DNA of 34,631 nt from Pseudomonadota bacterium. Its GTDB lineage: Bacteria; Pseudomonadota; Alphaproteobacteria; Rs-D84. Position numbers and translations under genes: made by a program. The notes beneath the pieces were generated by a model. The model was not told the DNA's origin and ran no database searches. It was given only the letters and a program-made list of their open reading frames with translations. Where the stretch lies: the NCBI GenBank assembly GCA_009781955.1, contig WQUT01000003.1, positions 1-34,631 on the forward strand, read 5' to 3'. Each line of letters opens with the position of its first letter. Position 1 is the first letter of the stretch. Of the stretch, positions 3,001-32,108 are shown in pieces.

Positions 3001-3103
3001 TCGTCTTGCCCGTGCCGGCGTTCGCCTGGACCCAGACGTTCATCGCCGGGTCGCTGGCCCGTGCCTGTTCCGTTGAAAGCGCGCGCTTTGCCGCCATTTT
3101 CAC
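68..3103 (-). CDS. addA: Double-strand break repair helicase AddA (UvrD/Rep-like), carrying two in-frame palindromic insertions
   Basis: Walker A VQANAGTGKTSVLVQRLLRIL, ILVDEAQDTSPEQWRIL, VVGDTKQSIYSFQGA, VMTVHAAKGLDSPIVFL and YYRLLYVAMTRARDRLYIYG motifs over 1011 aa. Confidence 0.93.
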   Translation of the reverse strand: MKMAAKRALSTEQARASDPAMNVWVQANAGTGKTSVLVQRLLRILFRNDDDPRAGKNAGILCLTYTNAGASEMRNRILAELREWAYADDAQLRELLADIAHSEIPKTPPTDADLATARAIFYEYIDNPQMLKIRTIHSFCEEILRRFPMEAGISPAWRLVTEADQTRLMKDAFQELVNASPPTGPQPCAPTPPKGGVVNCSLNSEQVSAELLPPWGESQSASLVSAQRDAVGGLTDAFFRITERISEYSYDQLLGVLTDQYRVMFQLNQSFNYQKQFIDTVRNFLSIDPLAGQKFWSPAAMDDRRKILGLLESEILSPRKPAAYLVKAAQVIKKLMHDTNFDFDEYKTAFLTTTGARATRVTKKEYLVAEQDRVYEYDQNRINQAIYDDTVALFTLSDAFTKKYAELKLSRNLMDFDDIILYTERLFSDPATMGWVLSQLDVQLSHILVDEAQDTSPEQWRILRALATNFFTNGEGENPRTLFVVGDTKQSIYSFQGANPVEFMLSKNNIAEQIASDQRVIAEVPLSQSFRSVPAILSTVDYFFNDVSITNLANFKNNVHKCFRAGEAGFVELNSVKIPFSDTETAADDDEIDADDKAPVAEKIKNSVARREYIREIADKIEHLVTNETLESAGRRITPGDIMVLVQKRAPFAAPLVAELKSRNIAVAGSDRIVLPEFPAIRDLLNLVRFCLDTANDYALACVLKSPLFGFSESDLFAICHKRGDDTVFSRINVLRPEIYKELLQILEWANLPPYSFFMRLLNTGDRREKMIAALGGQIIDPLEEFLTIALSYERTQSGGLREFIQWFMEGGSEIKRDMEANSGVRVMTVHAAKGLDSPIVFLIDTIENPKSKREGAGRVVPISSVACPSSWVGLLRRSDSDGGLGGAISEKNSNNKYSNEVAPPRLPSATTPPQEGGDATEQKTTAFLWSPDGNASEKFQAAADARLQTQVAEYYRLLYVAMTRARDRLYIYGFSPTKVPAEIAWHTQLAAILPGHPNAATDANGILRIK
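338..512. repeat. Palindromic mini-element, family C copy 1, in frame inside addA
   Basis: Terminal inverted repeats CTCCGTCGCATCTCCCCCCTCTTGGGGGGG ... CCCCACCCAAGAGGAGGGGCACGCGACGGAG. Contains an internal CGCCGTCGCTATCGCTACGGCG hairpin. Encodes low-complexity peptide VACPSSWVGLLRRSDSDGGLGG...TTPPQEGGDATEQ. Confidence 0.8.
2403..2566. repeat. Palindromic mini-element, family C copy 2, in frame inside addA
   Basis: Outer arms AGTCCCCCCACCG ... CCGGTGGGGGGACT, plus two internal ACTCCCCCCAAGGGGGGAGT-type hairpins. Encodes SPPTGPQPCAPTPPKGGVVNCSLNSEQVSAELLPPWGESQSASLVSAQRDAVGGL. Confidence 0.8.
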
Positions 3104-3193
3104 CTTGTTTTCACGGTTGGATTGTAGTATAGATTTTATAAGAATTCAAGGCGTAGAAATGACCCATGAAGATTTTATAAAACCGAGGCAGGA

Positions 3194-4003
3194 ATGATAC
3201 CGATATTGTTTCCTATTCAATTACCTGGCATGACACTTGCAAATAGGCAAGATGTTTTCCGTTACGTGATAAATAATTTTTCCGCATATTATGATTCTGT
3301 GGATATTGTGCAGGACAATGACGAGGACGGTTTGATTTTATCAAGCCATGACGACGCTCCGTATTTTAATTTTTGCATACACAAGGACGGCAAGCTTGAA
3401 GATTGTATTGCGCGATATTTGCCAATGTTCAAGAAATATCACCGAACGCCCCTGATTTATGTGTCGCCGGCCTCTTCTTATTATTGCGAACAAATAGAAT
3501 TTGAGAAAATTTCAGACGACGCCTTTATGTTTTTGGAAGACGAAAGCATTTTAAGTAATTATCCGGTGCCGGATTCCATAAAGGTTGAACTTACAGAAGA
3601 TGAAGATTTGTTTATTAAAATATGGGGCGATTCTAGACGCGATCCGAACGATATTTACGGCGTTGCGAGCGAGGCAATGGTAAACGGAATGCGACATTTC
3701 TTCAAGCCCCCGAAGAAAGGATTCAGTCATTTTGCAACAATGGCATACAAGGATGAAAAACCCGTTGCTAATGTTGTATCAGTTTATAACAAGGATTGGC
3801 TGTTGGTCATCGGGCTGGGCACATTACCGGAATATAGAAAACAAGGGCTGGGGACCGTGCTTATGAAAGACATAATAGAACGGGCGCACAAATTGGGAAT
3901 AAAAACAATAACGCTACAGACGGAAACCGGCACCTATAATGAAAAATATTATGAAAAAATAGGGTTTGTGACGAGATTTAACGGTGTGTATTACAAACCC
4001 TAA
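3194..4003 (+). CDS. GNAT-family N-acetyltransferase
   Basis: C-terminal LLVIGLGTLPEYRKQGLGTVLMKDIIERAHKLGIKTITLQTETGTYNEKYYEKIGF matches the GNAT acetyl-CoA binding motif and terminal strand. Confidence 0.85.
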   Translation: MIPILFPIQLPGMTLANRQDVFRYVINNFSAYYDSVDIVQDNDEDGLILSSHDDAPYFNFCIHKDGKLEDCIARYLPMFKKYHRTPLIYVSPASSYYCEQIEFEKISDDAFMFLEDESILSNYPVPDSIKVELTEDEDLFIKIWGDSRRDPNDIYGVASEAMVNGMRHFFKPPKKGFSHFATMAYKDEKPVANVVSVYNKDWLLVIGLGTLPEYRKQGLGTVLMKDIIERAHKLGIKTITLQTETGTYNEKYYEKIGFVTRFNGVYYKP

Positions 4004-8268: not shown

Positions 8269-10347
8269 CTATTCTTCCAAGAAGCTGCGCAATTTGCGCG
8301 CGCGGGTCGGATGTTTCAGCTTGTTCAGCGCTTTCTGTTCAATCTGGCGTATGCGCTCGCGTGTCACGCCGATGTATTCGCCCACCTCTTCCAATGTGCT
8401 GGTCTTGTTGTTGGACATGCCGAAACGCATACGGATGACGGATTCTTCCTTGGAATCCAATTCGGACAATATTTCCGTCACGATTTTGCGCAGGTTTTTC
8501 TGCGCCGCCGACACGAACGGATTTTTCGCCGTTTCGTCCGCGATGATTTCTATGCGCGAACTATCGTCTTCCATTCCGACCGGCGCCTCCAACGAAATCG
8601 GTTTCAGATTGACCTTTTGCGCCTTGTGAATCTTGTCCACGGGCAGGTATATTATCTTGGACAATTCTTCGGCCGTCGGCGTGCGGCCGTATTTGTGCAT
8701 GAACTGGCGCGACGCTTTCTGAATCTTGTGAATATTGTCTATCATGTGCACGGGAATGCGGATGGTGCGCGCCTGGTCCGCGATGCTGCGCGATATGCCC
8801 TGTTGAATCCAGTTGGTCGCGTATGTTGAAAATTTGTTTCCCAAGCGATAGTCAAACTTGTCCACCGCCTTCATCAATCCGATGTTGCCGTCCTGGACCA
8901 GATCGGAAAAATCCAGCCCCAGCCCGCGGTTGGACGATTTCTTGGCGAATTTTATGACCAGGCGCAGGTTCGCCTCTATCATCTCGCGCTTTGCGCGCGC
9001 GGCTTCGGTCTGGCCGCGGCGGACCAGTTCCACGACTTTCTTGTATTCCGCCGTGGGCTGGCCCGTTTCGGCGGCGATTGCGGTGATGTCGTCCTGGATC
9101 TTGCGGATGTCCCGCTCGTGCTTGGTCGCGAATTTCTGCCATGCCGGCGATTTGTTGCGGCCCAGTTTCTTGACCCAGTTTTTGTTCAGCTCGTTGCCGG
9201 CGTATTCCGAAACGAAATCTTCGCGCTTTATCTTGCAAGAGAGGGCCAGGCGCATCAGCTTGCCTTCCAACCCCATCAACAGCTGGTTCCGCTTGGTCAA
9301 TTGTTCCAGAATTTCCGCGATTCGGTCGTCGTTCAGGCGGATCTGGCTGACATACTCAAACAATTCCAGGCGCATCTTTTCGTATTTCTTTTCCAATGCG
9401 TCGTCGGGACGCGCGGATGTCAGCAAGTTTTCCAACCGGTGATTCTGCAGCTTCTCCATCGCGCTGAAAATCTTTTTGATTTTTGCGAACAGCCCCAAAA
9501 CGACGGGCAGCAGCGATTCCTCCATAACCGGAATCGGCACGCCGGACGTTCCGCGGGCCGTTGGTTCCTTGGCGGCGCCTTCCTCGCCCTCTTCCTCTTC
9601 TTCCTCTTCTTCTTCGGTGGGCGTTTCTTCCATATCTTCCAGGTCTTCGTCGTCCAGGTCTTCCACGTTGTCCACGCCTTTTTGCTTTAATGCATCGGCC
9701 AGCGCGGCCAGGGATTTCTTTTCGGAATCGGACGAATACATTACTTCCAAGTTCACGATATAGCGCAGGCGGATTTCATCGGCCAACAATTGCTGATACC
9801 AGTTCAGCATCGCGCGGATGGTCATGGGGCTCTCGCACAGGCCGTATACCAGCAGGCGCAATGCGGCCTCTATCCGCTGCGCGATCGCGACCTCGCCCGC
9901 CGCGGTCAGCAATTGCACGGTGCCGATGGATTTCAGGTAAGACTGCACGGAATCCTGGACGCCCAGCGTCAGAGTGCCGGTGGAAGAATTCATCAGCTGC
10001 TTGGCGTAATAGTCGTAATCCTCGTCGCCCACGTCAACCTGTTCCGCGTCGGAATTCAGCAGATTGCGTATTTTATCGCGCGACGCGGGGTCTTCCTCGG
10101 CCTCGTCATACGGTTCGGTATCCGCTGTGAATACGGACGTTTCCAGGAATTCCAGCGCGAGATCCTGTTGAAAGAACGAGAGGACTTCCTCGCGCTCTGA
10201 TTTCGGAATCTCATCGGCCTCTATCGCGGAATCAAAGTCCATCTGGGACAGATACCCGGACTCGGTCGCCACGCCGGCCAGCTTTCGCAGGTTTTCCGGC
10301 AATGATTCAATCAGGAACTTTGTCGCTTCGTCAATTTGTCTTGGCAT
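8269..10347 (-). CDS. rpoD: RNA polymerase primary sigma factor RpoD
   Basis: [56 protein letters not shown] and [40 protein letters not shown]. Start set at [12 protein letters not shown] because the longer ORF reads through a repeat. Confidence 0.96.
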
Positions 10348-10360
10348 TGAAAATCCTATT

Positions 10361-10456
10361 TGTAGGGGCGCATTACCCGGGCCCCGACGACAAGCGAAGC
10401 GCGTCGTTGGGTGGGTCTTGCGCCCATTCTCTGGGGCGCAATAATGCGCCCCTACA
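10361..10456. repeat. Palindromic mini-element, family B copy 1, in the rpoD leader
   Basis: TGTAGGGGCGCATTA ... TAATGCGCCCCTACA perfect terminal arms with internal CCCGGGCCCCGAC...GTCGTTGGGTGGG. Confidence 0.8.
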
Positions 10457-10481
10457 ATTTTTGTTTTACGCAATTTATAGT

Positions 10482-11117
10482 TTATTCGTATTCTTTGTCG
10501 CGATGGTTTTTGTTATAATATTCAAAGAACCCTGGATTGACCGGATAAAGATATGCTTCGTTTTTATCAGTGAAATACCCTCTTCCTATAGCAATTTCAT
10601 CGCCATCTTTTGGTTCTTTACCCACGCCATTAAAAAATTCTATTTGCACGTCACATAGCCAAACCCCGTTTGTTCCGTCACCTTCTTCCCTGCGTAATGT
10701 TTTATTTGAAATTCTTATTTTATTTTGCAGTTTATAAGGAAAATTCGCGAACGGTCTCGGTGGGATTTCGCCTTCGGTGAAGATTTCATAAAAACTTTCC
10801 TCGCAATCGGTTTGCCCTTTGAAATCTTCCGGTTTTACATCGGCTATACAGTGACCGTTCGCGCAAGATTTTATCGGGCAATTTTCCGGGCAAACTGTTA
10901 TTTCCTGATCTCTGGGTGCTATGACATCGCCGGGTTTTGGGATTCTGCCGTCCAGTATTTGTGATGCATGAATTGCTTTTGCAAATCCATTAGGGTTAGT
11001 CAAAGCATAAAAATCCCCTTTTACGAATCTTGTTTGTTTTAATCCGGGCAAATCAATATGATAACCGCGGACATTTTGTGGTTCAACTTCCACGATAGTT
11101 TCAGCGTATTGTTTCAT
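10482..11117 (-). CDS. Hypothetical protein with clustered cysteines
   Basis: 211 aa [19 protein letters not shown] cluster. Confidence 0.6.
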
Positions 11118-16978: not shown

Positions 16979-17914
16979 ATGACAGAAAACACCGCAAAAT
17001 TTATAAATAAAATACATTGTGAAGATTGCATAGCGGGAATAAAAAAACTCCCGAATGATTGCGCCGATATAATTATAATAGACCCCCCATATAATATAGG
17101 TAAAAATTTCGGAAATAATTCTGACAAGCAGGATCAATTGGATTATATTGAATGGGTCAAGGTATGGCTGGCCGAATGCCAAAGGGTGTTAAAGAAAACT
17201 GGAACGATGTTTATTTACGGCTTTGATGAAATACTTGCGCACATATCAGTATTGTTACCCATAAAGCAACAAAGATGGTTGGTTTGGTATTATACAAATA
17301 AAAACATTCCGTCGCTAAACTTTTGGCAACGAAGCCATGAATCTATAATTTGTTACTGGCGGGAAGACCCAATATTCAACCGGGATGATGTCAGAGAGCC
17401 TTATACGGATGGATTTTTAAAAGGCAGCGCCGGCCGGGTTCGACCGGCCGGCAAAGGCAGATTCTCAAAAAATTGCGGAAAAGAGACGATTTATAATGCG
17501 AACGAAAACGGGGCCCTCCCCCGCGATGTTTTGGCGATTTCAACATTAGCCGGCGGGGCATCGCTAAAAGAAAGAATTATGTTTTGCAAAGATTGCAACT
17601 GTATAATTGATCCGCATAAACGAAAAGAACATGACAATCACGATATAATAATGCACCCTACGCAAAAACCGATAGATCTTACTGACAAACTAATAAAATC
17701 TTGCCGCCCGCAGAAAAAATATAATGTTCTTATACCATTTTGCGGCAGTGGTTCGGAATGCATCGCTACTTTGCATAACAACGGGAATTATATAGCGTAT
17801 GAAATAAATCCCGAATATGTATTATTGGCAGAGAAAAACATACGGCATTATAAAAAACTCAAAAGAGATTCTGCCGATCTATTCAGCCGATATCCTGAAA
17901 CGCCCGTCGGGTAA
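16979..17914 (+). CDS. Type II DNA methyltransferase (beta-class N4/N6, PF01555-like) with putative zinc-finger insert
   Basis: IIIIDPPYNIGKNFG, then target-recognition region with CKDC...H...H, HPTQKPIDLTDKLIKSC and VLIPFCGSGSECIATLHNNGNYIAYEINPEYVLLAEKNI. Confidence 0.93.
   Translation: MTENTAKFINKIHCEDCIAGIKKLPNDCADIIIIDPPYNIGKNFGNNSDKQDQLDYIEWVKVWLAECQRVLKKTGTMFIYGFDEILAHISVLLPIKQQRWLVWYYTNKNIPSLNFWQRSHESIICYWREDPIFNRDDVREPYTDGFLKGSAGRVRPAGKGRFSKNCGKETIYNANENGALPRDVLAISTLAGGASLKERIMFCKDCNCIIDPHKRKEHDNHDIIMHPTQKPIDLTDKLIKSCRPQKKYNVLIPFCGSGSECIATLHNNGNYIAYEINPEYVLLAEKNIRHYKKLKRDSADLFSRYPETPVG
17429..17452. other. Perfect 9-bp inverted repeat with TCGA in the loop, inside the methyltransferase gene
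   Basis: GCCGGCCGG-GTTCGA-CCGGCCGGC. Confidence 0.85.
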
Positions 17915-18590
17915 AAATAACAAATCCATTGTCCAGCCTGTCAAGGGTTCCATTATCAGGGTTAAACTTTATAAATTCTTTTGCCCAAGGCTTTAATTGT
18001 CCTTTTTTGCCGCCAACCTTATAGATTGGGGATTCATAGTCGCCCGGAACAATATAATAAACATCGGATACCTGATCAGAGCTTCGGCCTGCTTGCATCC
18101 TTGCTATCTCGGGCCGGTGCGATTCTTTCTTGATTTGCACTTTAATCTCGCGACCATCTGCTTTTGTAATCAAGATATCTATATCTTGGTGATCTAGTTC
18201 TGTCCCCATTTTGACGCTATTTTTTCCATAAAGTGACTCGGCGACATAACCCCCTTGGATTTGTGTTATAAGCGATGCCCAAGTTCTGTATATTCTTGCC
18301 TCCAGTCCTTTCTTAAAGCAATCGCAATCTTTTCCAAATCCTGTTTTGCCCCAAAATTCATTAATATCTTTTTCGTGGGTTTTACAGTATAGCAAATAGT
18401 AGTCGTCAAAACAAAGGGGGGCGGATAAATTATCGGCATTTTGCCAATATTGTTCATAAATTGTCTTCAGGGCCTGAATATTTCGCGGCAAATCCATTTC
18501 CACTGTTTTTATATGGATATATTTTTCACGATACTCTTGCAAAGGCACAGACTTTAAGAATTTCTCGTATGCGGACAAAGAAAATCTCAT
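17883..18590 (-). CDS. Type II restriction endonuclease, TaqI-like (predicted TCGA specificity)
   Basis: YEKFLKSVPLQEYREKYIHIKTVEMDLPRNI...YEQYW...GLEARIYRTWASLITQIQGGYVAE resembles R.TaqI as recalled. Nuclease-like HQDIDILITKADGREIKVQIKKE. Convergent with the methyltransferase, overlapping it by 32 nt. Confidence 0.8.
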   Translation of the reverse strand: MRFSLSAYEKFLKSVPLQEYREKYIHIKTVEMDLPRNIQALKTIYEQYWQNADNLSAPLCFDDYYLLYCKTHEKDINEFWGKTGFGKDCDCFKKGLEARIYRTWASLITQIQGGYVAESLYGKNSVKMGTELDHQDIDILITKADGREIKVQIKKESHRPEIARMQAGRSSDQVSDVYYIVPGDYESPIYKVGGKKGQLKPWAKEFIKFNPDNGTLDRLDNGFVIFTRRAFQDIG

Positions 18591-22110: not shown

Positions 22111-22187
22111 GCACCCATGGCTTAACTGGATAGAGCACCGCCCTCCGAAGGCGGGGATTGCAGGTTCGAATCCTGCTGGGTGCGCCA
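22111..22187 (+). tRNA. tRNA-Arg (CCG anticodon)
   Basis: GCACCCATGGCTTAACTGGATAGAGCACCGCCCTCCGAAGGCGGGGATTGCAGGTTCGAATCCTGCTGGGTGCGCCA. Confidence 0.95.
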
Positions 22188-31570: not shown

Positions 31571-31665
31571 AGTTGATTCTTTTTATGTTTTGCTGCATGT
31601 ATTTTATCATATTTCAAGGTTTTCTTAAAGCGAAAAGTTATAGTGACATTTTGACTATTTAAAAC

Positions 31666-31693
31666 TTGCATTTTTCCGGCTTTTACCTATAAT
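31666..31693 (+). promoter_or_regulatory. Putative sigma70 promoter of ssrA
   Basis: TTGCAT - 16 nt - TATAAT shortly upstream of the acceptor-piece sequence. Confidence 0.55.
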
Positions 31694-31700
31694 TATAATG

Positions 31701-32050
31701 TTCCGCACCCGCCTTTGCGCTTTGCGCGGCGGCGAGGTTCGGGAAAGATGATTCTGAATCCGTTGTGAAATAGTCGTTTTGGACCCGGGTGCGATTCCCG
31801 GCAGCTCCACCAATTTTCACCGAGCGTAAGCGAGGGCTGAAAATTGAGTGTCGCGCCGTAGCGCAAGCGAAGGCGGACTATTCAATTTATTCTTATGGGG
31901 CTGTGCAGTTTCGACAGGCGATGAAAGACAAACCGGGTGAATCCGACATGGCGTCGTAAAAAGCCGAATAAAAATGAAAGCGAACGAAAACGTTCACTAT
32001 GCAATGGCCGCCTAACGGCACCGGGTTAATTCGGCGATTGTCGTTTTTTC
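31701..32050 (+). ncRNA. ssrA: Circularly permuted two-piece tmRNA gene; outer boundaries approximate
   Basis: Acceptor piece ends ...GACCCGGGTGCGATTCCCGGCAGCTCCACCA (31812). Coding piece starts GGGGCTGTGCAGTTTCGACAGG (31897). GGGGCTG/CAGCTCC acceptor stem has a G3-U70 pair. Tag frame 31980-32015 = ANENVHYAMAA*. Confidence 0.93.
31854..31876. repeat. Family F hairpin inside the tmRNA intervening segment
   Basis: CGCCGTAGCGCAAGCGAAGGCGG. Confidence 0.7.
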
Positions 32051-32072
32051 CCATTTTGCTATTGCGGGGCTT

Positions 32073-32108
32073 TTCCGTGTGCCTGGCACCAGAAACACGG
32101 TTTTCCCC
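32073..32108 (+). terminator. Probable terminator downstream of ssrA
   Basis: CCGTGTGCCTGGCACCAGAAACACGG followed by TTTT. Confidence 0.55.

Follow-up and report, generated by a model that had tools for sequence, protein, structure and literature searches.

Near-complete loss of TCGA from an alphaproteobacterial genome carrying a predicted TaqI-type restriction-modification cassette, with exchange of the nuclease partner among relatives

The window (the whole stretch of DNA analysed, 34,631 nucleotides of one contig) contains only three copies of TCGA, and the alphaproteobacterial genome to which it belongs has lost this word almost completely. The window also holds two convergent genes that, judged by homology and arrangement, form an orthodox Type II restriction-modification (R-M) pair with a predicted specificity for TCGA. 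It is very likely that a complete, mobile and modular TCGA-specific Type II cassette, through leaky self-cutting, has purged its host of target sites. The phenomenon is known R-M site avoidance in an extreme and well-resolved form; its unexpected part is partner exchange, with the same methyltransferase lying beside either the TaqI-family enzyme R1 or an unrelated protein, R2.

The cassette and the scarcity of its predicted target

The pair consists of the following two genes.

16979..17914, + strand: M1, beta-class DNA adenine-N6/cytosine-N4 methyltransferase (PF01555, 2.7e-35), predicted to protect TCGA
17883..18590, - strand: R1, TaqI-family Type II endonuclease (PF09573 RE_TaqI, 1.1e-35; PADLOC REase_II, 2.3e-33), predicted to cut TCGA

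A first-pass annotation made from the sequence had described a convergent methyltransferase/endonuclease pair, a nuclease resembling R.TaqI and a methyltransferase of the beta class, and all three descriptions were borne out. The ends of M1 and R1 overlap by 32 bp, R1 matches the RE_TaqI profile over its full length (123.5 bits against a cut-off of 26.1; profile positions 1-224 of 229), and M1 has DPPY before an FxGxG-like motif (PFCGSG). The R and M genes are separate and adjacent, as in orthodox Type II systems. Alignment of 11 homologues, R.TaqI not among them, showed that R1 residues D133, D138 and Q152-x-K154 are invariant. PDB sequence searches with R1 gave no meaningful match, and a fold search with the R1 model returned weak restriction-enzyme-like matches, the best being AvaII at E 0.045. 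The nearest solved relatives of M1 are beta-class amino-methyltransferases. The GC content of the cassette is 0.39-0.40, compared with 0.53 for the genome.

Direct counting across the 34.6-kb window found TCGA at 17440, 22166 and 31911 and nowhere else, exactly as the first-pass annotation had listed, and its expectation of about 135 copies from base frequency agrees with the computed 134. The Markov check that it had suggested was carried out, with the expectation taken as N(TCG)*N(CGA)/N(CG). This gave 3 observed versus 98 expected copies (O/E 0.03), far from expectation and in keeping with the proposed depletion. TCGA has the lowest ratio among the sixteen palindromic tetranucleotides in the window, but it is not alone: GTAC, which the annotation had missed, is nearly as rare (2 versus 42 expected, O/E 0.05). 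GATC, CCGG, GCGC and CGCG are plentiful, as had been stated, but GATC is mildly low (O/E 0.57). Genome counts were made from 237 kb of contigs of the underlying assembly (981 kb, 93 contigs, 77% complete). The 20 other contigs (203 kb) are depleted too (observed/expected: TCGA 14/594, GTAC 33/241), indicating that TCGA depletion is genome-wide. The pooled 237 kb contained 17 TCGA versus 694 expected (O/E 0.02) and 35 GTAC versus 283 expected.

To compare coding TCGA with a null expectation, codons were shuffled among positions of the same amino acid, which keeps amino acids and codon usage fixed. The coding sequences contained 7 copies versus 627 under the shuffle (ratio 0.011), and the ratios for the three codon phases were 0.01, 0.01 and 0.03. 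Intergenic DNA outside RNA genes (25 kb) contained 1 copy versus 67.5 expected. Of the Ile, Phe, Val and Leu codons (NTC or NTT) preceding GA-, 4 of 631 ended in C, versus 1540 of 2404 preceding other G- codons, and serine was encoded by TCG in 2 of 918 cases before A- versus 924 of 3177 elsewhere. In relatives lacking the locus, -TC before GA- showed no drop, and serine TCG dropped less, roughly two- to threefold. The one-base neighbours of TCGA were not broadly depleted, indicating that the effect is on the word. A deamination signature was also sought, and TTGA and TCAA showed no marked excess (0.93-1.21 of expectation in carriers, similar in non-carriers).

We investigated where TCGA survives. 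The 17 sites in the 237 kb comprise eight in tRNA genes called by ARAGORN, one in a tmRNA gene, seven in long open frames and one in intergenic DNA, so that 9 of the 17 lie in tRNA or tmRNA genes. The three sites of the window are placed as follows.

17440..17443: residual TCGA inside the M1 gene, one of the seven long-frame survivors
22111..22187, + strand: tRNA-Arg(ccg), found by ARAGORN and Rfam; the surviving TCGA at 22166 is part of its T-loop TTCGA
31662..32104, + strand: tmRNA gene of the alpha/permuted type (Rfam RF01849, 119 bits; RF04321, 131 bits), holding the TCGA at 31911

The ARAGORN tRNA genes account for 0.3% of the sequence sampled, yet hold eight of the sites (binomial P about 1.5e-16). 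A shift of the tRNA T-loop from TTCGA to TTCAA was looked for in carriers and was not seen. The retention of structurally required sites implies that they are protected. The tmRNA gene, of the alphaproteobacterial, permuted form, was missed by ARAGORN and detected by Rfam.

Carriage and depletion among relatives

Among 202 genomes of the order, M1 was found in eight, six of which also contain R1. TCGA was counted in the 55 genomes with enough sequence, most of them at 20 kb or less. All eight M1 carriers had TCGA ratios of 0.02-0.17, and 46 of the 47 non-carriers had ratios of 0.40-1.19 (Fisher 7e-9, kinship ignored). The M1 orthologues of the seven relatives, all of them TCGA-depleted, share 68-79% identity with M1. 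Within one genus, four carriers had ratios of 0.03-0.12 and the non-carriers 0.40-1.05. Relatives lacking the R-M locus, a comparison proposed with the first-pass annotation, thus showed no matching depletion, with one exception in 47. This exception, G032 (TCGA 4/146, O/E 0.03), has no match to M1, R1 or a second methyltransferase, M2, and its genus-mates have ratios of 0.81-1.19; its assembly is 54% complete, and a gap may hide the locus. M2 was also considered as the cause of partial depletion in some relatives and was rejected, since the order contains no convincing M2 orthologue.

The M1 carriers span five genera, and the surroundings of the cassette differ between carriers where they are readable (in G033 it is flanked by ribosomal-protein and rpoA-like genes), a pattern that favours repeated acquisition. 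R1 was also found in Saccharibacteria, Elusimicrobium and Clostridia bins. These distant carriers had TCGA ratios of 0.08-0.37 (Elusimicrobium 0.08, a Clostridia bin 0.17, the genome of L012 0.16), except G208 at 0.70; G208 and G269 (0.62) are Clostridia with M2 in which depletion by the Markov measure is weaker. Its low GC content, its differing positions among relatives and its presence in distant phyla mark the cassette as mobile. In G205, R1 is an intact 241-aa frame despite an internal stop flagged by the profile search. An unannotated stretch of the Spiroplasma citri plasmid CP047444.1 (L195, about 3001-3745) aligns with M1 in two pieces at ~50% identity and reads as a remnant or recoded relative outside Pseudomonadota.

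Partner exchange and the candidate nuclease R2

In G005 and G006, R2 comes after M1 (79% and 75% identical to that of the window, respectively) on the same strand, and no R1 was found. R2 is 206-210 aa long in these two genomes and is unrelated in sequence to R1. Five R2 genes were compared.

L134:9977-10609: R2
L137:10383-11003: R2
L011:9978-10649: R2
L154:10122-10802: R2
L157:9458-10102: R2

Searches of Pfam, NCBIfam, PADLOC and PDB with R2 gave no endonuclease-family match, the best hit being DUF3291 at 5e-4, below its cut-off, and no R2 relatives were found in viral contigs, phages or plasmids. AlphaFold prediction from the single sequence gave a pLDDT of 36 and an unusable fold. The five proteins share invariant E46, D69 and E81-V-K83, and the D-Xn-(D/E)-X-K motif of PD-(D/E)XK nucleases is present in them at a conserved position.

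R2 is paired in Clostridia with M2, which is likewise of the beta class. The Clostridia bin L011 has R1, M2 and R2 side by side, R1 occurs with M2 in L008 and L014, and M2 occurs with R2 in G269 and G511, where the stretch read gave no R1 match. The pairings found are M1+R1, M1+R2, M2+R1, M2+R2 and M2+R1+R2. In the M1 tree, the R2-paired members are nested among the R1-paired ones, with weak support. The TCGA ratios of the R2 genomes are 0.17 (G005), 0.14 (G006) and 0.24 (G511), with G269 at the higher value given above. Protection against a TaqI-type enzyme requires the methyltransferase to modify TCGA; where another nuclease is its only partner, the simplest assumption is therefore that this nuclease cuts TCGA as well. 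R2 is a candidate for a new family of TCGA endonucleases.

We examined the flanks of the surviving coding sites, counting as C-flanked any TCGA with C before it or G after it. In G006 and G005 the survivors are mostly C-flanked: C-flanked contexts gave 16/32 versus 6/128 for all other contexts in G006 (P 1e-7), and 15/33 versus 10/118 in G005 (P 4e-5). The skew was absent in R1 genomes and was not significant in the Clostridia R2 genomes, which so far confines it to G005 and G006. Whole-genome counts point the same way: the numbers of TTCGAG and TTCGAT were 167:9 in G006 and 84:81 in G005, compared with 568:689 and 181:873 in the non-carriers G016 and G002 and 13:18 in the window's genome. ATCGAG was depleted in G006 (19, versus 248 in G016), indicating that C-flanked contexts are not all equally spared. 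We see about an even chance that R2 represents an undescribed restriction endonuclease family, unrelated to TaqI, that cuts TCGA, disfavours C-flanked sites and swaps with the TaqI-type enzyme as the partner of two beta-class methyltransferases, with host genomes recording the flank preference of the nuclease. If this is true, patterns of avoidance could serve to assay specificity in vivo.

Explanation, alternatives and known systems

In the explanation that we favour, R1 would cut unmodified TCGA and M1 would modify the host copies. Protection would be imperfect, with bare TCGA arising just after replication, when M1 is diluted or when the cassette is lost. Each host TCGA would carry a small constant cost, and substitution would have removed almost every replaceable site over evolutionary time, mostly through synonymous codon choice. 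The sites that RNA structure requires, in tRNA T-loops and tmRNA, would be kept and would have to be methylated. Members of the same methyltransferase clade are paired with R1 or with the unrelated predicted nuclease R2, and the purge is similar either way. The first-pass annotation had judged the system to be long-resident and not a recent acquisition. This is borne out in part. Depletion to 1% does require long exposure, yet the cassette is a mobile one, and its low GC content is not what long residence would lead one to expect, although R-M genes are often AT-rich. Its composition and its varied locations leave room for a succession of systems that replaced one another and shared one specificity.

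In a related reading, most of the purge would date from earlier TCGA systems in the lineage, and the cassette now present would have replaced them recently, establishing itself easily because hardly any sites remained to be protected. The GC contrast between cassette and genome and the variable insertion sites would fit such a history, partner swapping implies turnover, and relic avoidance after loss of a system has been documented (PMC4687349). However, carriage and depletion coincide almost perfectly among the genomes sampled, whereas rapid turnover would give more depleted non-carriers. Only G032, and in part G010 and G067, fit this reading, which we consider rather unlikely. Loss of TCGA by mutation, for example by deamination of a methylated base, and not by selection, appears very improbable: some methyltransferases do raise the mutability of their target base, but the expected products TTGA and TCAA are similarly frequent in carriers and non-carriers, and the tRNA and tmRNA sites survive. 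The genome does have marked word biases, with CGCG and GCGC common and CTAG and GTAC rare, which might suggest that codon or dinucleotide bias, not an R-M system, underlies the depletion. This account is refuted by the codon-usage-preserving shuffle, the equally depleted intergenic DNA and the undepleted non-carrier relatives, and its probability is negligible.

For the genomes with R2, the depletion of G005 and G006 could stem from a lost R1, with R2 an accessory protein and not a nuclease. The searches that returned no nuclease family, the coexistence of R2 with R1 in L011 and the failed single-sequence fold are compatible with this. Yet M1 in G005 and G006 and M2 in G269 and G511 have no candidate partner other than R2, R2 has the invariant E46, D69 and E81-x-K83 residues, and the alphaproteobacterial R2 genomes show the C-flanked residual context that R1 genomes lack. 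We regard the accessory role as doubtful.

R1 resembles the TaqI system of Thermus aquaticus (PF09573, TCGA) in its full-length RE_TaqI profile match, its predicted target and its orthodox Type II arrangement, whereas M1, a beta-class (PF01555) enzyme, is unlike M.TaqI, the partner in that system, which is of the gamma class. In H. pylori, m6A methylation of TCGA is carried out by two beta-class enzymes, M.HpyAX and M.Hpy99VII (PMC3936762), which are like M1 in class and predicted target, the only features compared; the class of M1 as such is therefore not new. TCGA is also rare in H. pylori, with 608 methylatable positions listed for strain 26695 (PMC3936762). Site avoidance has been described as a property of orthodox Type II systems that can persist as a relic after their loss (Rusinov et al. 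2015, PMC4687349), and both that study and ours link avoidance to a resident orthodox system. The threshold used there was a Karlin ratio of 0.78, and the window's genome lies far below it, at a Markov ratio of 0.02 over 237 kb. Beyond that work, avoidance is resolved here to the level of codons, RNA-gene refuges and nuclease-specific flank context. Avoidance is known, and its strength and cause are debated; the purge found here is near complete, tracks the locus within a genus, spares mainly fixed RNA sites and varies in context with the nuclease. This host-associated alphaproteobacterial order with small genomes thus offers a natural experiment on selection by self-restriction, and a route to predicting the specificities of unknown R-M pairs, together with a candidate nuclease, from genome words alone.

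The rarity of GTAC probably reflects a second system acting on the window's genome (G000). A second convergent R-M pair was found on its contig C45 (L032), comprising a PF01555 methyltransferase at 9370-10206 on the + strand and a partner at 10207-10785 on the - strand; the partner has 193 aa, a PD...ExK-like motif and a PADLOC REase_II match (9.6e-19). By sequence, this pair is a candidate cause of the GTAC depletion. TCATGA (2/32) and CTTAAG (1/12) are also low in this genome. In the order, single palindromic tetramers are often lost almost entirely: 25 of 49 sampled genomes (relatives G001-G080) had at least one at O/E <0.2 (GATC in 15, TCGA in 9, GTAC in 4, ACGT in 4 and CATG in 3), and the words concerned differ from genome to genome.
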